Source of the DNA: Nitrospirota bacterium | GTDB lineage: Bacteria; Nitrospirota; Thermodesulfovibrionia; Thermodesulfovibrionales; UBA6898 | DNA: 64,000 bases | Direction of reading: 5' to 3' | Assembly: GCA_016235245.1 (NCBI GenBank) | Contig: JACRLO010000001.1 | Location: 1 to 64,000, forward strand | Part shown: positions 13,700 to 31,390 of the stretch, one piece after another | Numbering within the stretch: position 1 is the stretch's first letter | Layout of the letters: each line of letters opens with the position of its first letter | Notes under the pieces: model-generated | Database searches by the model: none | Told to the model about the DNA's origin: nothing | Seen by the model: the letters and a program-made list of their open reading frames with translations, nothing else | Translations under genes and position numbers: made by a program

Positions 13700-15079
13700 T
13701 TATGAATTCAGTAATGCAGGTCTGTCCGGCAGTGTTACGGTAAATGTCGATCCATTGCCGTATTCGCTCGATGCGGTTATGGTGCCTTCATGGGCCAGGA
13801 CCAGTTCCTTCGTAATTGCAAGCCCCAGTCCGAGGCCTCCCCTACTGGCCTTGTAGAACCGTTCGAAGATAAACGGCAGGTCCTCTTTTTTTATCCCCTC
13901 GCCGGTATCTTCGACCTTGACTGCAATCATTTTTGTTTCATTCCCGATCCAGGACTCCACCCCGACCTTCACCACTCCCCCCCGCTGAGTTGCCTTGAGC
14001 GCATTGCTCAGGAGATTAATCACGATCTGACTCAGTCGGTCAGGATCGGCATACAGCGTGGTCCCCTCCCTGCAGTCAAGAACCAGCTCCACACCCTTGT
14101 CGCTGAACATTTTACGGTACCGCTCGATAATATTCCGAAGGAATATATCAAGACTGATTGACCGCCTGTCAAGATTGAGACTGCTGGCTTCTGCGAGAGA
14201 GAGTTCTTCGAGCCCCTCGATAATGGCCTTGAACCGTCCGATCTCTCCATAAAGAGACTGGATATGGTCCTGATCAAGGGGTATCAGACCGTCCATCATG
14301 CCTTCAAGTTCGCCGCGTATCGCGCTTACCGGCGTCCTGAGTTCGTGCGCAATGTTTGAAGTCATTTTTTTCCTGAGCGACTCCTGGACCTCAAGCGCAT
14401 GGGCCATTTTATTGAACGCCTCGGAAAGCCTGCTGATTTCGTCAATGCTTGATGCTGCCACCCTGCTGCTCAGATTACCCTCCGCAATAGCAGCAACCGC
14501 TCTGGTAAGCTGCTCAACGGGGGTCGTCAGTCTTTTGGAAAAAATAATACTTAAGAGCACCGCTGCGCCGCCCATCCCAAGGAGTGAGATAATGAGCAGC
14601 CTGTTTGAACGTTTGACAAAATAAAGTTCCTTCTGGCTGCGCAGGAATCTCAGATCTACCCTTCCGATCTCCTTGCCGGAAAGAAAAAGTGCATGGGGCT
14701 GGAAACTGCTCGCTTCATCTTTATATCTGAGGATTGATATGGCTACGATCCGCTTTTTTACATAGGGAGAAAGGATATTGACTGCGCTGTCCGTATCGAT
14801 CACGAAGGAGCCGTCTGCATCATAGAGTTTCATCTCAAAGCCTAACATAAGAGCCCAGACCGTGTTTTCAATAATCTCGGCGTTCGGCCAGACGCCATAC
14901 TTTTCAAACGTGCTTTCAAGTGACGTAGTGATCCACGATGCCCTGTCCTCTACCTCCCCCTCAAGATAGCCCCTGAAATCCCTCACCATAAGTTCCCGCA
15001 CAATAAGCGCAGATGAAAGGGCGATTGCGGAGACGGAAATGAGGATAAGAAATACCCTGAACCAGAGCTGTCTATACAT
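13700..15079 (-). CDS. Membrane sensor histidine kinase (HAMP, HisKA, HATPase)
   Basis: 459 aa from the ATG at 15079, which overlaps the stop of the upstream regulator by 8 bases; a longer reading frame upstream is only overlap. TM1 is at about residues 5-28, a ~130-residue periplasmic sensor follows, and TM2 is at ~163-185. After HAMP (LTTPVEQLTRAVAAIAEGNL) come the H-box NIAHELRTPVSAIRGE (His about 244) and the N, G1 and G2 boxes (NLLSNALKA, VEDTGEGI, GGLGLGLAI). It forms a two-component pair with the OmpR-type gene; the signal is unknown. Confidence 0.95.
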   Translation of the reverse strand: MYRQLWFRVFLILISVSAIALSSALIVRELMVRDFRGYLEGEVEDRASWITTSLESTFEKYGVWPNAEIIENTVWALMLGFEMKLYDADGSFVIDTDSAVNILSPYVKKRIVAISILRYKDEASSFQPHALFLSGKEIGRVDLRFLRSQKELYFVKRSNRLLIISLLGMGGAAVLLSIIFSKRLTTPVEQLTRAVAAIAEGNLSSRVAASSIDEISRLSEAFNKMAHALEVQESLRKKMTSNIAHELRTPVSAIRGELEGMMDGLIPLDQDHIQSLYGEIGRFKAIIEGLEELSLAEASSLNLDRRSISLDIFLRNIIERYRKMFSDKGVELVLDCREGTTLYADPDRLSQIVINLLSNALKATQRGGVVKVGVESWIGNETKMIAVKVEDTGEGIKKEDLPFIFERFYKASRGGLGLGLAITKELVLAHEGTITASSEYGNGSTFTVTLPDRPALLNS

Positions 15080-15770
15080 CTTTTTTGATCGAAAAGCGAT
15101 AGCCCACGCCATAAATGGTAAGAATGACGGCAGGGTTTTTGGGATCATCCTCGATCTTGCGCCTGATGTTTTTGATATGCGCGTCAATGCTTCGCTCATA
15201 CCCCTCGAACTGATATCCGAGGGCCCTATCAACAAGCTCCTCGCGCGTAAAAACCTTTCCTGGTGCTGAGGCAAGGCTGAAGAGAACCTTAAACTCGGTC
15301 GGCGTGATATCAACCGACGTGCCGTGTTTCTTCACCACATAGCTCTGGCCGTCGATCAAAAGGCTTCCATTGCTGAAACTCATCGGTTCTGCTGAACTGA
15401 GGTCTTCCTTCTTTGCCCTTTTCAGAAGCGCCTTAACGCGGTAGACCAGTTCCCTTGGGCTGAAGGGCTTCACCACGTAATCATCGGCACCGAGCGCAAA
15501 ACCTGCTACGCGCTCCTCCTCGGAAGATTTTGAGGTAAGCATGATGATCGGGATATCTCCGCTCTCCTTGATTTCCTGACAGACTTCCTCACCGCTGGTG
15601 TCAGGGAGCATGAGATCAAGAATCACCAGCAGTGGTTTCTGCTTCAGCAGCGCTGCCGTTGCCTCCTTCCCCTTCTCGAACTGCAGGACTCTGAATCCGG
15701 CCTCCTCGAGATAGACCTTCACGACCGTTGAAATCTTCCTGTCATCTTCAATGACAAATATCGTCTGCAT
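15072..15770 (-). CDS. OmpR/PhoB-family response regulator
   Basis: 232 aa. The receiver has acidic pair ED(D) at 8-10, phospho-acceptor Asp52 in VILDLMLPD, Thr in MLTSKSS and Lys in DDYVVKPF. The C-terminal winged helix (FKVLFSLASAPGKVFTREEL, YERSIDAHIKNIRRKI, YGVGYRF) is of OmpR type. It is cognate to the overlapping histidine kinase. The ATG lies 9 bases from the YkgJ-like gene upstream, so the three may be one transcript. Confidence 0.96.
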   Translation of the reverse strand: MQTIFVIEDDRKISTVVKVYLEEAGFRVLQFEKGKEATAALLKQKPLLVILDLMLPDTSGEEVCQEIKESGDIPIIMLTSKSSEEERVAGFALGADDYVVKPFSPRELVYRVKALLKRAKKEDLSSAEPMSFSNGSLLIDGQSYVVKKHGTSVDITPTEFKVLFSLASAPGKVFTREELVDRALGYQFEGYERSIDAHIKNIRRKIEDDPKNPAVILTIYGVGYRFSIKKDV

Positions 15771-17990: not shown

Positions 17991-19802
17991 TTATTTCCTT
18001 AAATGAACCGGCACACTTGTGGAGACCACTCCCTTTTTAAAGAGCAGTATCCCCTTGAGAAAAAGCGCTGTCTGGTTGTGCAGAAGGTGGTGCCACCATC
18101 TCGTTGGCACAAATTCCGGCAGAACCACCGTGATTACACCCTCAGGGTATTTTTCGCGTATGCTTTCGATGTAGTCTATGATCGGTTCTGTCACAGACCT
18201 GTATGGTGAATGCAGGATCTGGAGATTTACTCCCATGCAGAGAGTGTCCCATTTCTCCCTCACCTTCTGTGTCTCAATAGGGTCTATGTACACATACACG
18301 GCAGTGACATCATCAGATAAAACCTTGCCATATTTAATGGCGTTAATGACAGCCTGTTGAATTCCGGAGATAGGAATAATAACCGTATGGTGGCTGTAGA
18401 CATTTTCTGACGTCAGACAGGCGGTCACAGAAAGCTGCTCAGCCACTGCAACATAATGCTCGTGTATCTTCCGGGTCAAATAGACCAGCGCCGGAATTGC
18501 CACCAAAACAATCCAGGCCCCGTGCTCGAACTTCTCAACGGCAATGACTAACAGAACGACGCCCGTTGTTACAGTTCCCAGTCCGTTAATTATTATTCCT
18601 TTTATCCATCCTGCGCCTTTTTCTCTGAGCCAGTGCATGACCATGCCGGCCTGTGAAAGGGTGAAGGCTGTGAAAACCCCTACAGCATAGAGAGGGATCA
18701 GGGCATGGGTGTCGCCGCCAAACAGGACAATGAGCAGGACTGAAAAAGCCCCAAGGATAAGGATACCGTTTGAAAAAACCAGTTTGTCACCACGATTGCT
18801 CAGTTGACGGGGCAGGTAACGGTCTGCGGCCATAATTGATGAGAGCCTGGGAAAATCTGCAAAGGATGTGTTTGCGGCAAGTATCAGAATTATTGAGGTC
18901 GCAAATTGGATGAAATAATAAATTGCTCCTTTGGTAAATATGGCGCGGCTAAGCTGTGAAAGCACGGTCTCAGACTCGTTTGGGATTATCTTATAATAAT
19001 CGGCATAGTAAGCAATTCCTGTGGTAAGCACTCCAAGTATCACCGCCATCCAGATAAGCGTTATCCCTGCATTCTTTGCCTCTGGTTCTTTAAACGCCCT
19101 GACGCCGTTTGAGACCGCTTCGATACCGGTCAGTGTTGCGCAACCGGACGCAAATGCCTTGAGGATTATAAAAAGTGGAATTATATTTGTTGCTGCTGCA
19201 ATGTCCGGCATAGGGGGACGAGGGAAGGATAATGCCTTTGTAAAGCTTGCGATTATCAGCAGCAACAGCCCGCCCACAAAAAGATACACCGGAACCGCGA
19301 ACACCTTTCCCGATTCCTTTACCCCACGAAGGTTAATGACCATGATGAGCAATATCGAAACAAGGCACATCGTGACCGTATATTGCCGTGTCGCTGGAAA
19401 TGCCGAGGTGATGGCAGCTATACCTGACGAAATACTAACAGCAACGGTCAGAACGTAATCTATGAGAAGTGCTGAACCTGCTACAAGGCCCGGATAGGTG
19501 CCAAGGTTCTCTTTGGCCACTATGTATGCTCCTCCGCCGGAGGGATAGGCATGGATAGTCTGGTAGTATGATGTGGCAACGATTGCGATAAGTATCACAA
19601 TCCCGGTGGCAATAGGCATTGATAGATGCACCATTGCAGAGCCACCCACGACAAGAGCCATGAGGATTTCTTCGGGGCCGTACGCTACTGATGAAAGCGC
19701 ATCAGAGGAAAATACTGCAAGTCCCGTTGTCTTGCTCAGTCTTTCGTGCTTTTCCTTGATAGTCTCGATCGGACTGCCGATGAGAAAGCTTTTTATGGAC
19801 AT
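17991..19802 (-). CDS. kimA: KimA-like potassium importer (APC/KUP-type permease)
   Basis: 603 aa, close to B. subtilis KimA (YdaO, 607 aa). It has 12 TM helices of the amino-acid-permease fold with FSSDALSSVAYGPEEIL in TM1, YPSGGGAYIVA in the TM2 loop and GIEAVSNGVRAF in TM6, followed by a ~130-residue cytoplasmic tail. KimA is a proton-coupled K+ importer shut down by c-di-AMP. The c-di-AMP riboswitch and terminator directly upstream support K+ rather than amino acids as substrate. A good ribosome site (AAAGGAG) lies 8 bases before the ATG. It is divergent from the kdp operon. Confidence 0.85.
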   Translation of the reverse strand: MSIKSFLIGSPIETIKEKHERLSKTTGLAVFSSDALSSVAYGPEEILMALVVGGSAMVHLSMPIATGIVILIAIVATSYYQTIHAYPSGGGAYIVAKENLGTYPGLVAGSALLIDYVLTVAVSISSGIAAITSAFPATRQYTVTMCLVSILLIMVINLRGVKESGKVFAVPVYLFVGGLLLLIIASFTKALSFPRPPMPDIAAATNIIPLFIILKAFASGCATLTGIEAVSNGVRAFKEPEAKNAGITLIWMAVILGVLTTGIAYYADYYKIIPNESETVLSQLSRAIFTKGAIYYFIQFATSIILILAANTSFADFPRLSSIMAADRYLPRQLSNRGDKLVFSNGILILGAFSVLLIVLFGGDTHALIPLYAVGVFTAFTLSQAGMVMHWLREKGAGWIKGIIINGLGTVTTGVVLLVIAVEKFEHGAWIVLVAIPALVYLTRKIHEHYVAVAEQLSVTACLTSENVYSHHTVIIPISGIQQAVINAIKYGKVLSDDVTAVYVYIDPIETQKVREKWDTLCMGVNLQILHSPYRSVTEPIIDYIESIREKYPEGVITVVLPEFVPTRWWHHLLHNQTALFLKGILLFKKGVVSTSVPVHLRK

Positions 19803-19841: not shown

Positions 19842-19867
19842 TAAAAAACCGCCGGCAAAGCAGCGGT
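19842..19867 (-). terminator. Riboswitch-controlled intrinsic terminator before kimA
   Basis: The minus-strand hairpin ACCGCTG / CGGCGGT with a six-base loop is followed by T6 and further T-rich sequence. It lies between the riboswitch core and the kimA ribosome site, where an expression platform should be. The expected logic is that c-di-AMP binding favours termination. Confidence 0.85.
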
Positions 19868-19874
19868 CCGTGTT

Positions 19875-20010
19875 TCTGCCTGTTGCCCTTCCAAATGCCT
19901 GCGAGGTTAGCTGACGGGCTCGGGCCTGGAAGTGCCCTATCCTTGTTCAGGAATACGCCCCAAATTCTGGGTCCCCCGTATCCATGCCCATCGAAGCGAT
20001 GAGCAATGAA
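19875..20010 (-). ncRNA. c-di-AMP (ydaO/yuaA) riboswitch
   Basis: The minus-strand leader carries the hallmark ydaO core CGTCAGCTAACCTCGCAGGC (19916-19897), preceded by CCCGAGC, and the upstream half with CATCGCTTCGATG and GGGGGACCCAGA. These match the two conserved lobes of the c-di-AMP riboswitch as I know it from B. subtilis ydaO. It sits directly ahead of a terminator and a KimA-type gene, the classic regulon member. The ends are approximate. A covariance-model search was not possible. Confidence 0.88.
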
Positions 20011-20033
20011 TTTCGGCTGCATGTATTAATTGC

Positions 20034-20063
20034 ATGCTAACTCTGCATGCGCATACCTGTCAA
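20034..20063 (-). promoter_or_regulatory. Promoter for the riboswitch-kimA transcript
   Basis: The minus strand has TTGACA (20063-20058), 18 bases, TAGCAT (20039-20034), about 20-25 bases before the start of the riboswitch. The -35 is perfect and the -10 weak. Its -35 lies 25 bases from the KdpE-like box, so the two divergent transcription units share this segment. Confidence 0.5.
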
Positions 20064-20087
20064 TGGTAACAACGCTTGTCCTGGAAT

Positions 20088-20106
20088 TTTTTACAACATT
20101 TTTACA
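20088..20106 (+). promoter_or_regulatory. Candidate KdpE operator (two TTTTTACA direct repeats)
   Basis: TTTTTACA occurs at 20088-20095 and again at 20099-20106, an 11-base period expected for head-to-tail OmpR-family dimers. The text resembles the T-rich, TTTACA-containing E. coli KdpE site. It lies about 70 bases before the first kdp-operon ORF. Downstream, a weak promoter (TTTACG about 20121-20126; GATAGG near 20150) fits activator-dependent transcription. Confidence 0.55.
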
Positions 20107-20176
20107 CCGACGGTCAGTTTCTTTACGCCTGTTTTGCTTTCTTTCGTGATAGGCTGAAACCAGTGGAGGTGAAACC

Positions 20177-20257
20177 ATGGATGGTTTATATCTTGTTATC
20201 ATCATCGTCTTTTTTGCTCTCACCGGTCTGCTGGTGAAACTCTTCGAAAAGGTGTAG
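20177..20257 (+). CDS. 26-aa single-TM micropeptide at the head of the kdp operon
   Basis: ATG with a clear ribosome site (GGAGG 7 bases upstream) opens a 26-codon ORF: MDGLYLVIIIVFFAL, then TGLLVKLFEKV. It is one hydrophobic helix with a short basic tail. It precedes kdpF by 11 bases and is separate from it. Similar short ORFs (one TM plus K/R-L-x-E-x ending) precede kdpF in other bacteria as far as I recall, though I cannot search. It may be a second small Kdp subunit or a regulator of KdpFABC. Confidence 0.65.
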   Translation: MDGLYLVIIIVFFALTGLLVKLFEKV

Positions 20258-20268
20258 GAGACAATATT

Positions 20269-20361
20269 ATGGAAATCTTTTACTGGATAGGCGGTATGGT
20301 GGCCTTCGGGCTTCTTGTTTACCTTACTGTTGCGCTTATGAAGCCGGAGATATTCTCATGA
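20269..20361 (+). CDS. kdpF: KdpF, small stabilising subunit of the Kdp K+-ATPase
   Basis: 30 aa with one TM helix, ending ...[13 protein letters not shown]. The Y-L-x3-L-x-K/R-P-E-x-F ending is the KdpF hallmark. It stabilises the KdpABC complex in the inner membrane. Its stop overlaps the kdpA start (ATGA). Confidence 0.88.
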   Translation: MEIFYWIGGMVAFGLLVYLTVALMKPEIFS

Positions 20362-22160
20362 CAGCAAATGGCATCATACAGATCGGACTATACTTTATTG
20401 TTCTTTGGGCCCTTGTGAAACCGCTCGGCAGGTACATGGCAAAGGTGTATCAGGGCGAGTCTTTCTGGGCCAGTCGCATCCTCGGTCCTGTCGAGCGGCT
20501 GCTCTATCGCATGTTCGGCATAAGTTCCGAGGATGAGATGCCCTGGAAGACCTATGCAGGAGCAGCGATCGTCTTTAAGATCGGTTGTTTCTTCCTTTTA
20601 TATTTTATTCTGCGTATACAGGGGATACTGCCGCTGAACCCTCAGGGCTTTGCAGGGGTTTCACCGGACCTTGCCTTTAATACAGCGGTCAGCTTTATTA
20701 CGAACACCAACTGGCAGTCTTATGGCGGAGAATCTACCATGAGCTACCTGACGCAGATGACAGGCCTGACCGTCCAGAACTTTGTTTCGGCTGCCCAGGG
20801 CATGGCGATACTCGTTGCCCTGCTCCGGAGCTTTACGAGAAGAAGCGCCAGGACGATAGGCAATTATTGGGTCGACATGACGCGCTCTATACTTTACATA
20901 CTGCTGCCGCTAAGCCTTATCATAGCCGTGCTGCTCGTATCGCAGGGAGTGGTGCAGAACTTCAGCCCCTATAAAAATGTGCCGCTTCTTCAGTCCATTA
21001 TCTATGACAATCCCAAGATGGATGCTGACGGCAAGCCGGTCACAGGCGCAGACGGGAAGCCGGTAACCGAGCCTGCAAAGGCCTCAGAGCAGACACTGCC
21101 GCTCGGTCCTGCAGCATCCCAGATAGCGATCAAACAGTTAGGTACCAACGGCGGCGGGTTTTATAATGTCAACTCTGCCCACCCTTTTGAAAACCCGACA
21201 CCTCTTTCGAATTTTCTGGAGATGCTCGCTATTCTTATAATCCCGTCAGCCCTCTGTTTTACCTTTGGAGAAATGGTCGGGGACAAGAGACAGGGGTGGG
21301 CTTTGCTTGCTGTCATGGTGTTGCTGCTTATCCCATTTCTGATGCTGACGTACGCCAGTGAGCAGAGGGGAAATCCTCTGTTGACAGAAGCAGGCGTAGA
21401 TCAGACAACGGGCACTCTCCAGTCAGGCGGCAACATGGAAGGCAAAGAGGTGCGTTTTGGCATAGCGAATTCAGCGCTCTGGGCCACAGCTACGACTGCC
21501 GCGTCAAACGGCTCGGTTAATGCCATGCATGACTCCTTCAGCCCAATCGGCGGAATGATGCCTATGATATTGATCCAGTTGGGCGAGGTTGTTTTTGGGG
21601 GTGTGGGCTCAGGGTTGTACGGGATGCTGGCCTTTGCAATGGTAGCAGTCTTTATTTCAGGCCTCATGGTAGGTCGTACTCCGGAATACCTCGGCAAGAA
21701 GATCGAGGCCTTTGAAATGAAGATGTCCGCCATTGTGATCCTGATCCCTGCTGCCTCTGTTTTAATCGGGACAGCTGCAGCATCCATAACAGCTGCGGGA
21801 GTTGCCGGAGTTTCGAACCCTGGGCCGCATGGATTTTCACAGATTTTGTATGCCTTTTCCTCTGCAGGTAACAACAACGGCAGCGCCTTCGGAGGACTCT
21901 CGGCAAATGCGCCGTTTTATAACACATTGTTAGGCATCGCGATGCTTTTCGGGAGGTTTTGGGTTATGGTCCCGATAATTGCAATCGCTGGGTCTCTGGC
22001 CTCAAAAAAACATGTGGCCCCGAGCGCAGGCACTCTGCCGACACATACGCCGCTTTTTGTCTTTTTCCTTGCAGGCATAATTATTATCGTTGGTGCTCTG
22101 ACGTTTCTTCCCGGTCTTGCGCTGGGCCCGATAGCCGAGCACCTGACGCTCTATAAGTAA
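20358..22160 (+). CDS. kdpA: KdpA, K+-translocating subunit of the Kdp ATPase
   Basis: 600 aa, slightly longer than E. coli KdpA (557). It belongs to the K+-transporter superfamily with four pore-loop repeats; visible selectivity-filter segments include [34 protein letters not shown] and [14 protein letters not shown]. About 25 extra residues near 215-240 contain a small duplication (ADGKPVTG / ADGKPVTE) between TM segments. KdpA binds K+ and passes it through a tunnel to KdpB. Overlaps kdpF; kdpB follows after 14 bases. Confidence 0.97.
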
Positions 22161-22174
22161 TAAGGAGGGCTGCA

Positions 22175-24250
22175 ATGACGACCCATAATAAGAAACAGCA
22201 TGCGCTTTTTGAAGCAAAGATCATACAGCGTGCGCTGAAAGATTCACTTCTAAAACTAAATCCGAAAAACCAGTTCCGAAACCCGGTCATGTTTGTGGTC
22301 GAGGCGGGAAGCGTCCTGACAACGCTTCTTTTTGTACATGCCCTCTTTGTGCCTGGGCCCGAGTCTCCGTGGTTTATCCTCTCGATCTCCCTATGGCTTT
22401 GGGCCACCGTTCTCTTTGCAAATTTTGCCGAGTCTGTAGCAGAAGGCAGGGGCAAGGCCCAGGCAGATGCGCTTAGAGGTTCGCGAAAAGATATTCAGGC
22501 GAAGAGGCTTTTAAAGCCCGAAAGGGAGGCGTCAATCGAAACTATCCCGTCTCCTCAGCTGAAAAAAGGCGACCATGTCCTTGCTGAGGCGGGAGACATC
22601 ATCCCGGGTGACGGTGAGGTTGTGGCGGGTGTGGCTTCAGTAAACGAAAGCGCCATAACCGGAGAGAGCGCTCCGGTCATCAGGGAGAGTGGCGGTGACA
22701 GATCAGCTGTTACCGGCGGCACCCAGGTGCTGTCAGACTGGCTCGTGATCAGGATCACCGCAAACCCCGGAGAGACCTTCCTCGACAGGATGATCTCGAT
22801 GGTCGAAGGAGCAAAGCGACAGAAGACACCGAATGAGATTGCACTTGATATACTGCTTGCCGGCCTTACCATAATTTTTTTGCTTGCAACGGTCACTCTG
22901 CTTCCCTTTTCCCTGTTCAGCGTAAAGGCTGCAGGCCAGGGAAGTCCGCCATCGATTACCGTGCTTGTATCGCTGCTCGTCTGTCTTATCCCGACAACCA
23001 TCGGCGGGCTTCTCTCTGCCATCGGCATTGCAGGTATGGACAGGATGATCCAGGCCAATGTCATTGCCATGTCAGGCCGTGCAGTTGAAGCGGCAGGTGA
23101 TGTGGACGTGCTCCTCCTTGACAAGACCGGTACTATCACGTTAGGCAACAGGCAGGCAACAGCATTTATCCCTGCATCGGGGGTTGACGGCAAGGCATTA
23201 GCAGATGCCGCCCAGTTATCATCGTTAGCAGATGAAACTCCTGAGGGCCGGAGCATTGTCATACTGGCAAAGGAAAAGTTCGGTTTCCGAGAACGTGACA
23301 TTACTGCCCTCAACGCAACGCTTATCCCTTTTTCAGCGCATACCAGAATGAGCGGTGTAAATCTCGGAGACAGGGAGATTCGGAAGGGTGCAGCAGATGC
23401 GATAAAGGAATATGTCAGCCAGCAGGGAGGAACCTTTCCCGCTGACGTCAAGTCAACGGTCGATGAAATAGCCCGCAAGGGCGGCACTCCTCTGGTGGTT
23501 GCTGAAGGCAAAAAAGTACTCGGCACTATCCGGCTCAATGACATTGTCAAGGGCGGTATTAAGGAGCGCTTTGCAGAGCTGCGGCGCATGGGTATCAAGA
23601 CGATCATGATCACGGGTGACAATCCGCTTACCGCTGCTGCCATTGCAGCCGAGGCAGGGGTGGATGACTTTCTGGCACAGGCGACACCAGAGGCCAAACT
23701 GAAGCTCATCCGTGAACACCAGGCAGGAGGCAGGCTTGTGGCCATGACCGGTGACGGCACCAATGATGCTCCGGCGCTTGCCCAGGCTGATGTGGCTGTT
23801 GCCATGAATACCGGAACCCAGGCAGCAAAAGAGGCGGGCAATATGGTTGATCTGGACTCCAACCCCACAAAACTGATCGAGGTTGTCGAGATCGGCAAGC
23901 AGTTGTTGATGACGCGCGGCACGCTCACAACCTTCAGTATTGCCAATGATGTTGCGAAATATTTTGCGATCCTGCCAGCGGCGTTTCTTGCCATATATCC
24001 GCAGTTAGGAGCGCTCAACATCATGGGACTTTCGACGCCGCAGAGCGCAATCATGTCTGCAGTCATTTTCAACGCCTTGATCATTATTGCGCTGATCCCG
24101 CTGGCTTTGCGCGGTGTTGCCTATCGACCCATGGGGGCCGGTGTAGTGCTGCGCAACAACCTTCTTGTTTATGGCCTTGGAGGTCTGGTCGTCCCGTTTG
24201 TCGGTATCAAACTGATTGATATAATCCTCACCTTTTTACATATGGCGTAA
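22175..24250 (+). CDS. kdpB: KdpB, catalytic P-type ATPase subunit
   Basis: 691 aa (E. coli 682). The phosphorylation motif DKTGTIT is near residue 315. Actuator motif TGES ([10 protein letters not shown]) is near 165, MITGDN near 475 and [16 protein letters not shown] near 525. PTTIGG in TM4 is the P1-type K+ subfamily signature. TM helices fall near 40-90, 225-280 and the C-terminal third. Ribosome site AAGGAGG precedes the ATG. It hydrolyses ATP to drive K+ uptake through KdpA. Confidence 0.98.
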
Positions 24251-24261
24251 GGAGAGATACT

Positions 24262-24840
24262 ATGATGAATATAATACGACCTGCAATAGTTTCCCTGTTT
24301 GTCTTTACGGTAATAACAGGAGTGATATATCCCCTTGGAGTGACCGGCATTGCTCAACTGCTCTTCCCCTCCCAGGCCAACGGGAGTATTATCAAGAAGG
24401 ACGGAAGGGTGATCGGATCTGCTCTTATCGGCCAGCCCTTTGACGACCCAAGCTATTTTTGGGGAAGACTCTCTGCAACCGCGCCGTTTCCCTATAATGC
24501 AGCGGCTTCTTCCGGCTCTAACCTGTCGCAGTCCAACCCGGCCCTGCTGGCTAATGCCAAAGGCCGCATAACCTTTCTGAAGGCTGCTGATCCTCAGGCC
24601 CCTGCCTCGGTTCCTGCAGACCTGGTTACTGCTTCCGGCAGCGGGCTTGATCCGCATATCAGCCCTGCGGCCGCCGTATATCAGGTGCAGAGGGTGGCAA
24701 GACTGCGGGGAATGGATGAGACCACCTTGCGGGCACTTGTTGCTGCAAATACAGAAGCTAGACTGTTCGGAATTATGGGAGAACCCGTGGTGAATGTGCT
24801 CAAACTGAATCTTGCGCTCGATGAACTCGGGCAGAAATAA
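24262..24840 (+). CDS. kdpC: KdpC subunit of the Kdp ATPase
   Basis: 192 aa with one N-terminal TM helix (about 8-30) and a periplasmic or peripheral domain. Family motifs seen: [50 protein letters not shown] and [17 protein letters not shown]. It is proposed to raise the ATP affinity of KdpB. The stop overlaps the next open frame, but the following gene probably starts 12 bases later. Confidence 0.97.
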
Positions 24841-24851
24841 TGAGGTGTCAG

Positions 24852-25253
24852 ATGAATAGAAATGCCGAAAAAGCAGGATGGTGCAGAATAATTGCCGTAT
24901 GTCTTCTTTTGATGTCAGTTGCCATGCCTCTTGCTGCGTTTGCAGTTTCATATCCTGGCCAGCTGTATCACCGCGAGGACAGGCATGACAAGTTTGTGAA
25001 AGGAGATGTGGTGTATCTCTTCCATAGCGGCACTGAGGATGTTAAGAAGACCATCCGTATCAATGATACTCTTGCAGTCAGCCGGATAACGCCGTCCTGC
25101 GAAGTGGTGCCGATTGGGCTCATCAGGGTGGTCTCTTTTGTCGGGGATACCTATATCAAGGGAGAAGTCTTTGCAGGGGAGATCAGGCCCGATGACATCG
25201 CCAAAAAGGACAAAGTATCATGCCTCGTGATCTCGGCAGGAGTATGCAAGTAA
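24852..25253 (+). CDS. Periplasmic protein of unknown function inside the kdp operon
   Basis: 133 aa from the ATG at 24852, preceded by GAGGTG; an overlapping ATG at 24840 is also in frame. Residues ~10-35 form a signal peptide (hydrophobic run, then PLAAFAVSYPG). The mature ~100 residues read as small beta modules: KGDVVYLFHSG, INDTLAVSR, GLIRVVSFVGDTYIKGEV and GEIRPDDIAKK, resembling SH3-like or FlgT-type barrels that bind peptidoglycan or proteins. Cysteines at SCEV, SCLV and VCK may pair. It is placed between kdpC and kdpD, so it is likely made with the pump. I know no Kdp subunit like it. Confidence 0.8.
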   Translation: MNRNAEKAGWCRIIAVCLLLMSVAMPLAAFAVSYPGQLYHREDRHDKFVKGDVVYLFHSGTEDVKKTIRINDTLAVSRITPSCEVVPIGLIRVVSFVGDTYIKGEVFAGEIRPDDIAKKDKVSCLVISAGVCK

Positions 25254-25312: not shown

Positions 25313-27994
25313 ATGGAAGAACGAAGACCTGATCCCGATCTCCTCCTGGCAAAGGTCCAGCAGGAAGAGGAGCGTCGGCGCGAAGGGCAGCTGAAGATAT
25401 TCTTTGGCGCTGCCCCTGGTGTTGGCAAGACCTATGCCATGCTGAGTGCTGCCCAGCAGAAGCTGGCAGAGGGTGTTGACATTGCAGTTGGTGTTGTCGA
25501 GACCCATAAGCGGAAAGAGACTGAAGCACTCCTTGCAGGTCTCGAACTGATCCCCCGCCATCCTGTCGAATACCGTGGTGCAGTGTTGTCGGAATTCGAC
25601 ATTGATACGGCCCTGAAGCGCAAACCTGAGATAATTCTGATGGATGAGCTGGCCCATACCAACGCCCCGGGCTCACGTCACAAAAAGCGTTGGCAGGACG
25701 TATACGAACTTCTTGGCGCAGGCATCAATGTATATACCACTATTAATGTGCAACATCTCGAAAGCCTGAATGACGTCGTTGCCCAGATCACAGGTATAAA
25801 CGTACACGAAACCGTTCCGGATTTTCTGCTCGACAGGGCTGATGAAATCGAGCTTGTTGATCTTCCGCCTGACGATCTGCTGCAGCGGCTGAAAGACGGC
25901 AAGGTCTATGTACCGGAGCTTGCGGCCCAGGCACGACAGAACTTTTTCAGGAAGGGCAACCTTCTTGCGTTGAGGGAACTTGCGCTTCGCCGCACTGCCG
26001 AACGTGTCGACGAGCAGATGCAGAGCTATCGGGAAGTCAAGGGCGTAAAGGAAGTCTGGCCTGCTGCGGAAAGACTGCTTGTATGCATCGGACCGAACCC
26101 CCGGTCGATCAGACTGATTCGTGCTGCAAAACGCATGGCTGCCGGCCTTCGTGCTGAATGGCTCGCTGTCTATGTAGAGGCCCCTCACAAGGTCAGGCCG
26201 TCTGAAAGCGACCTGAAACAGCTTGCAGAGCATATGCAATTGGCTGAAAGCCTCGGGGCAGAAACCGTTACGCTCTCCGGGCCTAAGGCCAGCGATGAGA
26301 TCCTGACCTACGCCCGTTACCGGAATGTCACCAAGATCATCACCGGCAAACCTACGCATCCGCGCTGGAAGGACAAGCTGTTTGGGTCAATGCTCGACGA
26401 ACTGGTGCGTGGCAGCGGCGATATCGAGGTTTATGTCATATCCGGCGATTCAGGTGAACCGATAAAGGGTGTCACTGCCAAACCGGGACGCGCTAAGCCC
26501 AAACCTAAGGAGTGGCTCTTCAGCCTTGGTGTTGTCGGGGCCTGCACAGGCCTGTCTTTTCTTATGGCCCCCTATTTCGAAGTCGTTGACCTTGCCATGG
26601 TCTATCTTCTTGGCGTTGTGATCGTAGCAGGGAGGACAGACCGCGGCCCGTCCCTTATTGCAGCACTTTTCAGTGTGGCTGCCTTTGACTTTTTTTTCAT
26701 TCCGCCGTACTACACCTTTGCGGTGGGTGATGTCCGTTATATCGTGACCTTTGTCGTCATGTTTACGATAGCGTTTATTATAAGCCGGCTGACACACCGG
26801 ATCAGGGACCAGGCAAATGCCTCCCGGCAGAGGGAAAAGAGGACAGCCGCAATGTACAGCCTCAGCCGCAAGTTCGTACATGAACGCGGCATTGAAAAGC
26901 TGAGCGCCATTGCGATCAAACATATCAGCGAGGTATTCTCGAGCCGCGTGATCATACTTGTGCCCGATGAGCGCGGAAAGCTTGTCATCCCCGTAACAGG
27001 TCCTGACACGTTTGCGCTTGATGATAAAGAACAGAGTGTGGCCCAATGGACTTTTGATCACCGTCAGAATGCAGGCCTCGGAACAGACACGCTGGCCGGC
27101 TCTCGCGCACTGTATGTGCCGCTTGTGGCCGCATCAAAAACAGTAGGGATAATAGGCGTTCTTCCCAATTCGCCACAGAGCTTCTTTGATCAGGAGCAGA
27201 TTCATGCCCTGGAGAGTTTTGCAAATCAGGCAGCAATGGCTATTGAACGCGCCTTCCTCTCTGAAGAAGCGCAGCAGGCACTTCTGAGGGCAGAGAAAGA
27301 GACGCTGCGCAACACCATGCTCAGCTCGGTTTCACATGACATCAGGACGCCGCTTGCAGCGATTACGGGCGCTGCAACTACCCTGCTTCAGCAGGATGCG
27401 GTCCTGGACCAGCACAATCGGCAGGAGCTTACACAGACCATTGCTGAAGAAGCGGACCACCTGAACCAGATCATCCGCAATGTGCTGGATATGACACGCC
27501 TTGAATCCAGGGCGATAACCATAAAGAAAGAATGGCAGTCCCTGGAGGAGATTGTGGGGGTTGTGCTGAACCGGCTCACCGAAAGGCTGAAAGATCGCCA
27601 TGTTGCAGTCGCGCTTCCGGGGGACCTGCCGCTGGTCCCCTTTGATCCCCTGCTGATCGAACAGGTCCTAATGAACCTGTTCGACAATGTGCTCAAATAT
27701 ACTCCTTCCGGGACACCGCTTGAGATTTCGGCGTCTGTCGGGGAGTCTGACGTTACAATAGAACTCGCCGACAGAGGCCCGGGGCTGCCTCAGGGAGGCG
27801 AAGAACATATCTTTGAAAAGTTCGTGCGCGGCTCGTCCCCTGGCGGCGGCATCGGGCTCGGATTGGCAATCTGTCGGGCAATTGTAGCTGCCCACGGCGG
27901 CAGTATATGGGCTGAAAATCGAATCGGTGGCGGTGCAGCGTTCAGGTTCACTCTTCCGTTGGGCGGGGAACAGCCGTTGACGGAAAAGGAATAA
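25313..27994 (+). CDS. kdpD: KdpD, sensor histidine kinase for K+ limitation
   Basis: 893 aa, full length. Order: KdpD N-terminal domain with Walker A GAAPGVGKT (~31-40) and DELAHTNAPGSRHKKRWQDV; a Usp-like domain (~245-370, GPNPRSIRLI...AVYVEAP); a four-helix membrane bundle (~395-490); a GAF-like region (~530-650); H-box SSVSHDIRTPLAAITG (His ~676); and HATPase (NLFDNVLKY, ADRGPGLP, GGGIGLGLAI). The SxS...FTAxY motif reported for c-di-AMP binding in S. aureus KdpD is not evident in the Usp region. It pairs with KdpE 10 bases downstream. Confidence 0.97.
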   Translation: MEERRPDPDLLLAKVQQEEERRREGQLKIFFGAAPGVGKTYAMLSAAQQKLAEGVDIAVGVVETHKRKETEALLAGLELIPRHPVEYRGAVLSEFDIDTALKRKPEIILMDELAHTNAPGSRHKKRWQDVYELLGAGINVYTTINVQHLESLNDVVAQITGINVHETVPDFLLDRADEIELVDLPPDDLLQRLKDGKVYVPELAAQARQNFFRKGNLLALRELALRRTAERVDEQMQSYREVKGVKEVWPAAERLLVCIGPNPRSIRLIRAAKRMAAGLRAEWLAVYVEAPHKVRPSESDLKQLAEHMQLAESLGAETVTLSGPKASDEILTYARYRNVTKIITGKPTHPRWKDKLFGSMLDELVRGSGDIEVYVISGDSGEPIKGVTAKPGRAKPKPKEWLFSLGVVGACTGLSFLMAPYFEVVDLAMVYLLGVVIVAGRTDRGPSLIAALFSVAAFDFFFIPPYYTFAVGDVRYIVTFVVMFTIAFIISRLTHRIRDQANASRQREKRTAAMYSLSRKFVHERGIEKLSAIAIKHISEVFSSRVIILVPDERGKLVIPVTGPDTFALDDKEQSVAQWTFDHRQNAGLGTDTLAGSRALYVPLVAASKTVGIIGVLPNSPQSFFDQEQIHALESFANQAAMAIERAFLSEEAQQALLRAEKETLRNTMLSSVSHDIRTPLAAITGAATTLLQQDAVLDQHNRQELTQTIAEEADHLNQIIRNVLDMTRLESRAITIKKEWQSLEEIVGVVLNRLTERLKDRHVAVALPGDLPLVPFDPLLIEQVLMNLFDNVLKYTPSGTPLEISASVGESDVTIELADRGPGLPQGGEEHIFEKFVRGSSPGGGIGLGLAICRAIVAAHGGSIWAENRIGGGAAFRFTLPLGGEQPLTEKE

Positions 27995-28004
27995 GATAAG
28001 CCAG

Positions 28005-28718
28005 ATGGCCGAGGATAAGGGATTAATACTTCTGATCGAGGACGAGCCTCAGATGCGCCGTTTTCTCCGGATTACGCTCCAGGGATACGGGTACCGGCTC
28101 ATTGAGACAGCTTCGGGACAGGAAGGTCTGACGCAGGCAGCAACGCGTAATCCGGATGTTATATTGCTGGACCTCGGTCTGCCTGACATCGACGGGCTGG
28201 AGGTCACAAAGAGGCTTCGGGAATGGACCCAGATTCCGATCATTGTTATTTCTGCGCGGGAACAGGAAGAAGATAAGATCAAAGCTCTTGACGCGGGCGC
28301 AGACGACTATCTGACCAAGCCCTTTGGCGCAGGCGAACTTTTGGCCAGAATTCGCGTGGCACTCCGTCATACGGCGACGCAACATGGTGAAGAAGAATCA
28401 GTTTTTGTTCTCGACAACCTCAAGGTCGATCTTCTGAAGAGGCAGGTCCTGCTCGATGACAGGGAAATACATCTGACACCTATTGAGTACAGGCTCCTTA
28501 CAACGCTGATAAAGCATGCCGGAAAAGTAATGACCCATAGCCAGCTCATGAAAGAGGTCTGGGGCCCTGCATATGTGGACCAGAGCCATTATCTGCGCAT
28601 CTATATGGCACAGCTCCGCCATAAGCTGGAGATTGATCCTGCGCGGCCGCGGTTTTTCATCAACGAGCCGGGGATTGGTTACAGGCTAAAGGTAGATTTT
28701 GATGAACTAAGCAGATGA
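28005..28718 (+). CDS. kdpE: KdpE, OmpR-family response regulator
   Basis: 237 aa. The receiver has IEDE at 11-14, phospho-Asp56 in ILLDLGLPD and Lys in DDYLTKPF. The winged helix ends ...RFFINEPGIGYRLK, as in KdpE. It should activate the kdp promoter through the TTTTTACA repeats at 20088-20106. Its last 40 bases overlap, tail to tail, the end of the P-type ATPase gene on the other strand. Confidence 0.96.
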   Translation: MAEDKGLILLIEDEPQMRRFLRITLQGYGYRLIETASGQEGLTQAATRNPDVILLDLGLPDIDGLEVTKRLREWTQIPIIVISAREQEEDKIKALDAGADDYLTKPFGAGELLARIRVALRHTATQHGEEESVFVLDNLKVDLLKRQVLLDDREIHLTPIEYRLLTTLIKHAGKVMTHSQLMKEVWGPAYVDQSHYLRIYMAQLRHKLEIDPARPRFFINEPGIGYRLKVDFDELSR

Positions 28719-31390
28719 CTGTGCCGCGTGACTGCTTTCCTTGCCTCGTCTGCAAAAAAGACCAGAAGCATGAACGGTATCAGGATGAGCCATATGTCTG
28801 CTCCAAGCGGGGCAGTGGCAAATATTCTGTTGCCCCAGGGATGATAGATGATGAAGGCGCTGAGAAGTATCTCTGCTGCAATGCCCCAGAGGATCATTCT
28901 GTTGCTGAAGATACCCCTTTTGAATACGGATTCACTCTGCGTTCTGCACGCAAAGACGGTGCCTATCTGCATAATCACAATCCCTAAAAAGGTGGCTGTA
29001 GATGCCTGCCGGGTCAACATGCTGTCTATAGGCAGTGCCATCCCCCAGTGCCAGCCGCCCTGCAGAAGAACCATAAAATATACAAAGAGTACGCCGATTG
29101 AACTGATCAGCCCGAGGAATACGTATCCCCTTAAGAGGACATTCAGATCGATAAGGCTTTCCCCCTGAGGCCTCGGCGGATTTTTCATGACATTTGACTC
29201 CGGGGGCTCAATGCCAAGTGCCAGTGCCGGAATTGTTTCAGTGCCAAGATCAATTGCAAGAATCTGCATAACGGTGAGCGGAAGGGGAATTTTAAAAAGC
29301 GCGAAAAGAATATACGGAACAGCCTCAGGCGTGCCGTGTGCAAAAATGTAGGTAATGAATTTTCTGATATTTTCAAAGACGGTCCTTCCTTCCTCGACGG
29401 CAGAAACAATGGTTGCAAAATTGTCATCCAGGAGTATCAGGTCAGCAGCTTCTTTCGCAACATCTGTTCCTGAGATACCCATAGCGATGCCGATATCAGC
29501 CTTCTTGAGCGCCGGCGCATCATTGACGCCATCGCCGGTTACAGCAACCCGCTCTCCCTGCTCTTTCAGGATCGAGACAACCCGCATCTTGTGCTTGGGC
29601 GTCATACGCGCAAAGATGATCTCCTTTGCCGAGAGCTTTTCCCGCAGCTCATTGTCATTGATCGTGACAAACTCAGCCCCTTCTACTACGACCGGCTCTC
29701 CTGTTACCAGACCGATTTCCCGTGCTATTGCGACAGCAGTTCTGCTGCCATCGCCGGTGATCATGATCACCCTGATCCCTGCACCATGACATTTTTTCAA
29801 AGCGTCAGGCACTTCGGGACGCGGCGGGTCCTCAAGCCCGATAAGACCGAGGAAGATGAGATCAGATTCAAGAGACTGAGGGTTAGGGACTGGGGGTTGG
29901 GGAACAGACCCCTTACCTTCAGCCATTTGCCCTGTGCCCTCCTTATACGCAAACGCAAGAACGCGCAGGCCGCTGTCCATGAGTTGATGGTATGCCTCCA
30001 TTGCCTGCGTGCGAAACGGCTCGTCCATCTTCTGCTTCGCGCCATTGAGCAGGAAGCTGTTGCATAAAGGAAGCATGCTTTCCATGGCGCCTTTTGTGTA
30101 CACGTATTCTTTGTCTTTGATCCTGTTCAGTGTGGTCATCCTCTTGCGGTCAGAGTCAAACGGTATCTCCGCGATGCGTTCTGCGTCAACATCGCCGATG
30201 CTCTCTCGTGCAAGCCTCAGGAGAGCGGTTTCTGTAGGATCGCCCTTATACGCATTGTCCGCATAACGGGCATTATTACAGAGGAACGCTGCCTGTAGCA
30301 GAACGTCTGTAGTCTTTGGCCTATGGTTTTTTGCCTCAATGACCCTGTTATCTGTCCATATCTTTGCTGCAGTCATCCTGTTCTGGGTCAGCGTTCCGGT
30401 CTTGTCCGTGCAGATGACCGTAACTGATCCGAGGGTTTCTACAGAAGTCAGGTTTTTTATCAAGGCATTTTTTTTTGCCAACCGCCTGCTTCCCATGACC
30501 AGGGCAAGTGTAACTGTTGGAAGCAACCCCTCAGGCACGTTAGCAACAATTAGTCCTATGGTAAAAATAAAGTTTTCCCAGAAAGACCGTCCCATCAAAT
30601 GACCCATCAGAAAAAGTGTGCCTCCCATTACCGTTGCCATGACTGCGATGAAGCGGGTGACCTTGATGATCTCTTTCTGAAGCGGGCTGAGGCCAGATTC
30701 GACGGCGCTGGTGAGATGGGCAATTCTTCCGAACTCTGTGCTCATGCCGGTTGCAAATACCAGTCCCTTGCCTGAGCCACTTGTTACGGTAGTCCCGGCA
30801 AAGACAATATTGGGACTATCCAGCAGTTCTCCCTCAAAAGGCTTATGGTCTCTGAGGCTCGCCTCTGACTCGCCCGTTAAGGCGGCGTTATTCACTTTGA
30901 GCATGGAGCTTTCGATCAGCCGTGCATCAGCCGGTATTCTGTCTCCTTCGGAAAAAAAGGCAATGTCGCCCGGCACGACCTCCCTGGAATGGACCTGTTT
31001 TTCCTTTCCTTCCCGCATGATCCTTACCTGGAAAGGAAGAAGTTTCTTTAGCGCCTCGAGGGCTTTTTCTGCGCGATATTCCTGGATGAAGGTAAAGATG
31101 GCATTGATAACGATAACACCGACAATAGCAAAACCGAGCATAGCCATGCCCTCACCCGGATGGAGATAGTCGGAAAGGAACCCCAGGCCGGCACCGACCC
31201 ATAGCAGGATTGCAAGAAAATGCGTGAACTGGCCGAAAAAGCGCAGGGCGAGATGGCTTTTATGCACCTCCCTGATCTCATTGAAGCCACTTTCAGCGAG
31301 GCGCTTTGCTGCCTCAGCCTCTGACAGACCTGCTTCAGAACTGACAAGCTGCCTGAGGGCATCCTCCCGGGAAAGGCTGTTAATCTTCAT
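28679..31390 (-). CDS. P2-type cation-transporting ATPase (Ca2+ or Na+/K+-like)
   Basis: 903 aa. Cation ATPase N-terminal domain, TGES loop (ALTGESEASL), VPEGLLPTVT in TM4, phosphorylation motif CTDKTGTLT near 330, MTGDG near 555 and TGDGVNDAPALKKADIG near 610, and about ten TM helices. PEGLL in TM4 and the overall layout resemble Na+/K+ and Ca2+ P2 pumps; ion specificity is not certain. Residues ~483-508 hold an odd insert rich in P, Q, N and S (VPQPPVPNPQSLES) encoded by a repeat-like DNA segment. It is preceded by, and overlaps, the universal stress gene. Confidence 0.93.
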   Translation of the reverse strand: MKINSLSREDALRQLVSSEAGLSEAEAAKRLAESGFNEIREVHKSHLALRFFGQFTHFLAILLWVGAGLGFLSDYLHPGEGMAMLGFAIVGVIVINAIFTFIQEYRAEKALEALKKLLPFQVRIMREGKEKQVHSREVVPGDIAFFSEGDRIPADARLIESSMLKVNNAALTGESEASLRDHKPFEGELLDSPNIVFAGTTVTSGSGKGLVFATGMSTEFGRIAHLTSAVESGLSPLQKEIIKVTRFIAVMATVMGGTLFLMGHLMGRSFWENFIFTIGLIVANVPEGLLPTVTLALVMGSRRLAKKNALIKNLTSVETLGSVTVICTDKTGTLTQNRMTAAKIWTDNRVIEAKNHRPKTTDVLLQAAFLCNNARYADNAYKGDPTETALLRLARESIGDVDAERIAEIPFDSDRKRMTTLNRIKDKEYVYTKGAMESMLPLCNSFLLNGAKQKMDEPFRTQAMEAYHQLMDSGLRVLAFAYKEGTGQMAEGKGSVPQPPVPNPQSLESDLIFLGLIGLEDPPRPEVPDALKKCHGAGIRVIMITGDGSRTAVAIAREIGLVTGEPVVVEGAEFVTINDNELREKLSAKEIIFARMTPKHKMRVVSILKEQGERVAVTGDGVNDAPALKKADIGIAMGISGTDVAKEAADLILLDDNFATIVSAVEEGRTVFENIRKFITYIFAHGTPEAVPYILFALFKIPLPLTVMQILAIDLGTETIPALALGIEPPESNVMKNPPRPQGESLIDLNVLLRGYVFLGLISSIGVLFVYFMVLLQGGWHWGMALPIDSMLTRQASTATFLGIVIMQIGTVFACRTQSESVFKRGIFSNRMILWGIAAEILLSAFIIYHPWGNRIFATAPLGADIWLILIPFMLLVFFADEARKAVTRHSHLLSSSKSTFSL
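29868..29935 (-). repeat. Low-complexity repeat words inserted in frame in the P-type ATPase gene
   Basis: On the minus strand the words CCCCAACCCCCAGTCCC and TAACCCTCAGTCTCTTGAATC lie within the ATPase coding region and preserve the frame. They translate to a Pro/Gln/Asn-rich stretch between the conserved AFAYKEG and LIFLGLIGLEDPPR segments, where homologues as I know them run on directly. The pattern looks like intergenic repeat words rather than coding sequence. Confidence 0.6.

Follow-up and report, generated by a model that had tools for sequence, protein, structure and literature searches.

The window analysed here, a 64,000-nucleotide stretch of a Nitrospirota genome, contains a divergent intergenic region (19842-20178) flanked by kimA on the reverse strand and by a kdp operon on the forward strand. 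Reading leftwards on the reverse strand, the order is a predicted kimA promoter (20034-20063, with the -35 TTGACA at 20063-20058, an 18-nt spacer and the -10 TAGCAT at 20039-20034), a c-di-AMP (ydaO/yuaA) riboswitch aptamer (19881-20028), an intrinsic terminator as expression platform (19846-19869), the ribosome-binding site AAGGAG and kimA (17991-19802), which encodes a 603-aa K+/H+ symporter of the KUP/KimA type. Rightwards on the forward strand lie two KdpE-like boxes, namely box 1 (20090-20106; TTTACA-N5-TTTACA, in full TTTACAACATTTTTACA) and, 32 bp downstream of it, box 2 (20122-20138; TTTACGCCTGTTTTGCT), then the conserved element CGTGATAGGCTGAAA of the kdp core promoter region (20144-20160), an ORF for a hydrophobic, 26-aa membrane peptide (20177-20257) and kdpF-kdpA-kdpB-kdpC-orf137-kdpD-kdpE. 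An earlier note on this DNA had put box 1 at 25 bases from the kimA -35; its coordinates were right, but the gap is 26 nt.

The kdp operon and its sensor kinase

KdpA (20358-22160), KdpB (22175-24250) and KdpC (24262-24840) score above the cut-offs of TIGR00680 (782 bits), TIGR01497 (1086 bits) and NF001454 (275 bits), respectively, and kdpF (20269-20361, 30 aa) was assigned from its size, position and hydrophobic make-up. The KdpDE pair is intact: kdpD (25313-27994) encodes a full-length protein of 893 aa with the domain order KdpD-Usp-DUF4118-GAF-HisKA-HATPase, and the product of kdpE (28005-28718) matches E. coli KdpE (4kny) with 272 bits. Of the NCBIfam models, those of KdpD and KdpE match these two proteins best, yet both scores remain below the cut-offs, which are tuned to E. 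coli. At the c-di-AMP site of its Usp domain, KdpD reads CIGPNPRSI, which does not fit the motif (A/G/C)XSXSX2N(Y/F), and the motif was found neither in the window KdpD nor in any of the 12 relatives that have a Usp region. We would thus not expect KdpDE to read c-di-AMP directly here; the signal should act via RNA and KimA rather than via KdpD.

The small orf137 (24840-25253), between kdpC and kdpD, has no match in Pfam or NCBIfam, and homologues are found at the same place in four relatives (G160, G161, G163 and G172; G numbers denote genomes and L numbers loci). Its product has a signal-like N-terminus. In G162, the kdp promoter is followed directly by the start of an orf137-like protein in place of the missing kdpFABC (L086 6430-6506).

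The riboswitch leader of kimA and the KimA protein

The earlier note had read a ydaO-type riboswitch and a terminator ahead of a KimA-like importer, and all three parts were borne out. The check that it proposed with the Rfam covariance model (RF00379) gave a full-length match at 20028-19881 on the reverse strand, with 83.3 bits (E = 7e-18) compared with a gathering score of 38 bits; this is the sole match in the whole genome, and on the strength of its sequence the assignment is beyond doubt. When aligned with 27 relatives, the aptamer includes the 3' pseudoknot strand, and the pairing of the hairpin loop to this strand (CTTCCA/TGGAAG) is conserved; as read from the alignment, L005 has a compensatory change to CTCTTTA/TTTAAAGAG. 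The terminator (19869-19846) has a stem of 9 pairs and a T tract, folds alone with -11.3 kcal/mol, and is invariant at 7 of 8 and 8 of 8 positions of its stem arms across five genomes.

When P1 was forced in the window RNA, the terminator was retained; the cost was about 5 kcal/mol, an amount that binding of the ligand could supply. Five leaders were folded with the terminator 3' arm present or removed, and also under forced P1; no common antiterminator emerged, and the pairing partner of the terminator 5' arm varied among them. The leader as a whole is no more stable than its shuffles (z = -0.95). One match of the promoter type TTGACA-18-TAGCAT is about what shuffles yield, so the case for the kimA promoter comes from conservation: the -35 is mostly kept, and its spacing from box 1 is constant, in the window, G160, G162, G173 and G174. 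Transcription of kimA probably starts near 20027.

KimA aligns with B. subtilis KimA (6s3k) over residues 2-603 (548 bits, 47% identity), and its K+ ligands D36, Y43, T230 and Y377 are all conserved. Among the c-di-AMP contact sites, which we took from a published account (PMC10284832), Y118, N237, R337, V457, P479, F568, H579, N580 and Q581 are identical to B. subtilis, while the pocket position S582 is changed to T, a change shared with S. aureus KimA. These residues suggest that c-di-AMP would act twice, on the kimA transcript and on the KimA protein. A search of the genome for a diadenylate cyclase, likewise proposed in the earlier note, returned a single enzyme, CdaA (TIGR00159, 252 bits; curated cut-off 189), in the gene order cdaA-cdaR(YbbR)-glmM. 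Both the covariance-model match and the cyclase gene, whose absence the note had named as speaking against its claim, are thus present. Across the class, a DAC domain occurs in 213 of 230 genomes; no DAC gene was seen in some riboswitch-bearing genomes (G156, G166, G181 and others), probably due to incompleteness.

KdpE-like boxes ahead of kdp

The half-sites of E. coli KdpE read TTTATA-N5-TTTACA; they are 6 bp long, have 5 bp between them and so repeat at a distance of 11 bp (PMC3264566). Upstream of kdp, box 1 shows this arrangement of two TTTA(T/C)A half-sites with 0 mismatches; it is the sole match in the window at one mismatch or fewer (0.08 expected) and the only perfect copy in the 3.25-Mb genome, and 3000 rounds of dinucleotide shuffling of the intergenic region never produced a match. 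Across five genomes (the window, G160, G162, G173 and G174), 10 of the 12 half-site positions are invariant, the only change being A/G at the sixth position, with 6 of 26 columns invariant between the box and the -35 and 3 of 18 in the promoter spacer. The box is kept upstream of kdp in G160, G161 and G172 and upstream of kdpDE in G173 and G174. Box 2 is weaker than box 1, covers the expected kdp -35 and is found again, with its offset unchanged, ahead of kdpA in several relatives; it falls within a four-genome alignment in which 13 of 16 columns of the core promoter element are invariant and from which a -10 position may be proposed. The KdpE-like box that the earlier note had seen ahead of a divergent kdp operon is therefore perfect, genome-unique and conserved, and the identities of KdpABC, KdpD and KdpE behind it are confirmed.

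It is highly improbable that box 1 is an AT-rich coincidence or that it serves a different OmpR/PhoB regulator, such as the one encoded at 15072-15770. OmpR/PhoB boxes do resemble one another, and the genome encodes many response regulators (138 candidates at first look), but coincidence is hard to square with the shuffles and the genome-unique perfect copy, or with a box that is conserved together with KdpE in six genomes and absent from the riboswitch-controlled kdp operons that lack KdpE.

Upstream of all riboswitches in the class, a convincing box was found only beside kdp, kdpDE or a remnant of these, in genera g1 and g9; box-like sites with 1-2 mismatches at a few other loci were left uncounted. 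In G076 and G077, kdpDE is divergent from a riboswitch-kup unit, and a KdpE-like site with 2 mismatches lies between them (L043 6095-6689; L117 5560-6154).

Riboswitch targets and three states of kdp control among relatives

The relatives are mostly draft metagenome assemblies, and our counts refer to related genomes rather than to independent events. Among the relatives found with KimA, those that have names are metagenome-assembled genomes of Nitrospirae/Nitrospirota, and several come from groundwater and soil. The earlier note had stressed a setting outside the Firmicutes; Nitrospirota is indeed such a setting, but a less unusual one than implied, with the riboswitch present in 78 of 230 genomes of the class. 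The genes behind 88 riboswitch loci are kimA (about 44), kup (30), kdp (4-6) and a few trkH-like or permease genes, and nearly all of them encode K+ importers; the kup call is based on K_trans (509 bits for one representative), and the trkH-like and permease genes were identified by eye. Upstream of kimA in other phyla, a riboswitch was found at 0 of 67 non-Nitrospirota loci, some of which are cut short upstream. The kimA genes of Gemmatimonadota (L156-L161) often lie near kdpD, kdpE or a kdp operon, mostly on the same strand and without a c-di-AMP riboswitch, and Holophagaceae (L162-L165) have a tandem pair of kimA-like genes.

Three states of kdp control can be told apart. State A, comprising the window, G160, G161, G163 and G172, combines kdpFABC with intact KdpDE (KdpD of 893-901 aa); all five genomes have box 1 with at most one mismatch, and four of them have box 2 at the same offset. 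State B places the riboswitch ahead of kdp itself (G148, G155, G177, G178 and G181) or of kdpD (G182), at loci L232, L233, L234, L235, L236, and L237 with L118. Its KdpD, 637-640 aa long, has KdpD, Usp, DUF4118 and weak GAF matches and is without HisKA or HATPase; no complete KdpE was found in these genomes, the one trace being a fragment of 125 aa on a separate contig of G182, and there was no KdpE-like box at those loci having upstream sequence. A terminator follows the aptamer in all three cases checked, two of which also have a promoter before the aptamer. An unrelated ORF stands between the riboswitch and kdpA in G178, and the kdp operon of G155 is split across two contigs.

State C, in which kdpFABC is lost, is represented by the congeners G173 and G174, neither of which has a KdpA gene anywhere. 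Here the retained riboswitch-kimA unit is divergent from a kinase of 352-354 aa with only DUF4118, HisKA and HATPase, the KdpD, Usp and GAF domains being absent (L065 4974-6032; L055 4859-5923), and the kinase is followed by an intact KdpE (93% in G173 and 91% in G174). Box 1 is kept in both genomes; G173 has lost the core promoter of kdp together with box 2, and its box 1 sits 26 nt from a perfect TTGACA. Other perfect boxes occur elsewhere in these genomes, one in G173 and two in G174. G162 has both boxes beside kimA and no kdpFABC in its assembly; a search for KdpE or KdpD found neither, on a contig that ends inside the key region. Overall, intact KdpDE pairs with a riboswitch on kimA or kup, and a riboswitch on kdp pairs with a kinase-less KdpD.

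Discussion

Our analysis indicates that this one divergent intergenic region very probably serves two independently controlled K+ importers, with each signal acting on its own transcript. This agrees with the earlier proposal that K+ uptake obeys two signals, which from sequence are predicted to be c-di-AMP via the riboswitch on kimA and KdpDE via the box upstream of kdp. In the mechanism that we propose, kimA would be transcribed from a sigma-70-like promoter into a leader made up of the c-di-AMP riboswitch and then the terminator. High K+ would raise the level of c-di-AMP made by CdaA, the bound aptamer would be stabilised, the terminator would form and kimA would be switched off, while the KimA protein is probably also inhibited by c-di-AMP. 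When K+ is short, phosphorylated KdpE would occupy the two tandem boxes, at about -61 and -29 relative to the presumed kdp start, and turn on kdpFABC-orf137-kdpDE. An extra effect of KdpE on kimA is possible.

As to the origin of the junction, the kdp-kdpDE operon most likely ended up between an older riboswitch-kimA unit and the gene of a cation P-type ATPase. A P-type ATPase related to the one at 28679-31390 adjoins riboswitch-kimA on one strand in several other families, and in the window this ATPase and kimA are both still on the reverse strand, with kdp-kdpDE between them on the forward strand. Given that the ATPase and riboswitch-kimA are direct neighbours elsewhere, insertion of kdp would be the simplest account. 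Divergent kdp and kimA were observed in the window and in G160 alone; G162, G173 and G174 have derived forms of this layout. In many genomes of the class, the ATPase gene is found next to kimA or kdp, and its product may be part of a set for K+/Na+ balance.

An important issue is whether the proximity of box 1 to the kimA promoter has regulatory consequences. We consider it rather probable that the two units are neighbours by history only, with box 1 solely an element of kdp and with kdp and kimA uncoupled here. Box 1 stands where an activator site for kdp would be expected, and in G161 and G172, where kimA is missing or lies at another locus, kdp is preceded by both boxes with unchanged spacing. 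The ATPase-kimA adjacency in other families also implies that kdp was inserted, and the divergent layout was seen in genera g1 and g9 alone. What such an account leaves unexplained is box 1 in G173, which stands at constant spacing after the loss of kdpFABC, box 2 and the core promoter. On the other hand, KdpE bound at box 1 could activate or repress the kimA promoter, so that initiation would need KdpE and elongation low c-di-AMP. The centre of box 1 is about 71 bp upstream of the presumed kimA start, and 25-26 nt separate the box from the -35 in each of the five genomes. Moreover, G173 and G174, which are without KdpA, keep an intact KdpE, a kinase and the box, and a KdpE kept under selection there must have a target; in G173, box 1 has outlasted box 2 and the kdp core promoter, and G162 has both boxes beside kimA with kdpFABC missing from the assembly. 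However, kimA loci that are not beside kdp have no box despite the presence of KdpE (G163, G164, G165, G167 and G168), box 1 in G173 and G174 could serve autoregulation of the kinase-KdpE operon, both genomes have the further perfect boxes, and in G162 neither KdpE nor KdpD was found up to the contig end. We regard action of KdpE on kimA as possible but rather unlikely. The crosstalk at the DNA level suggested in the earlier note is made plausible by the constant spacing in five genomes and by the survival of the box in G173 after kdp loss, but kimA away from kdp is boxless, and the note's reading of joint control is only partly supported.

A more elaborate version would make kimA a two-input gate, with KdpE acting at initiation and c-di-AMP at termination; in the congeners without kdpFABC, the truncated KdpD would have been reassigned to the control of kimA, with the riboswitch providing the shut-off at high K+. 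Truncated forms of E. coli KdpD respond to K+ limitation and fail to repress at high K+ (PMC2714519), and the attraction of the idea is that the riboswitch on kimA would supply the high-K+ arm that these forms lack. We nevertheless think this version unlikely.

Returning to two separately controlled importers, several known systems offer points of comparison. The B. subtilis kimA (ydaO) riboswitch is like that of the window in its Rfam family, target gene and terminator platform, whereas the window belongs to Nitrospirota and has a divergent kdp-kdpDE operon as neighbour; B. subtilis 168 has no kdp (PMC6488665). In Bacillus, a riboswitch on kdp accompanies a truncated KdpD, the two controls of kdp are mutually exclusive, and the riboswitch-kdp form has been described as restricted to Bacillales (PMC6488665). 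The B. thuringiensis kdpFABC riboswitch (PMC6488665) resembles six relatives in the class, which combine a riboswitch on kdp or kdpD with a kinase-less KdpD; in contrast, the riboswitch of the window is on kimA and its kdp has intact KdpDE. The exclusion rule of Bacillus holds in Nitrospirota, but the restriction to Bacillales does not. The window represents state A with a riboswitch on the other importer, and each control thus keeps its own transcript.

To our knowledge, E. coli is without c-di-AMP signalling. Its KdpDE-kdpFABC system is like that of the window in the full-length KdpD, the KdpE and the box of 6-bp half-sites at 11-bp distance (PMC3264566), whereas the window has, in addition, another box at 32 bp from the first and a divergently transcribed riboswitch-kimA unit. 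S. aureus KdpD binds c-di-AMP through its Usp domain with the motif (A/G/C)XSXSX2N(Y/F) (PMC8214093); the window KdpD shares the Usp domain, and in both cases the two signals meet in K+ uptake, but the Usp region in the window is without the c-di-AMP motif. We found no literature joining a c-di-AMP riboswitch with Nitrospirota, which is weak evidence of absence as subscription literature was only partly covered. The parts described here are of known kinds; it is their pairing, with its fate in related species, that bears on the way in which bacteria divide K+ control between two signals.

Finally, the relatives can be regarded as natural variants that sort cleanly: at six loci with riboswitch-controlled kdp, KdpD is kinase-less and a complete KdpE was not found, and loss of kdpFABC accompanies a KdpD reduced to its kinase half. 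The claim that riboswitch-controlled kdp is restricted to Bacillales is thereby corrected, and these variants open the division of K+ signals, and the exchangeability of the two signals, to direct test.
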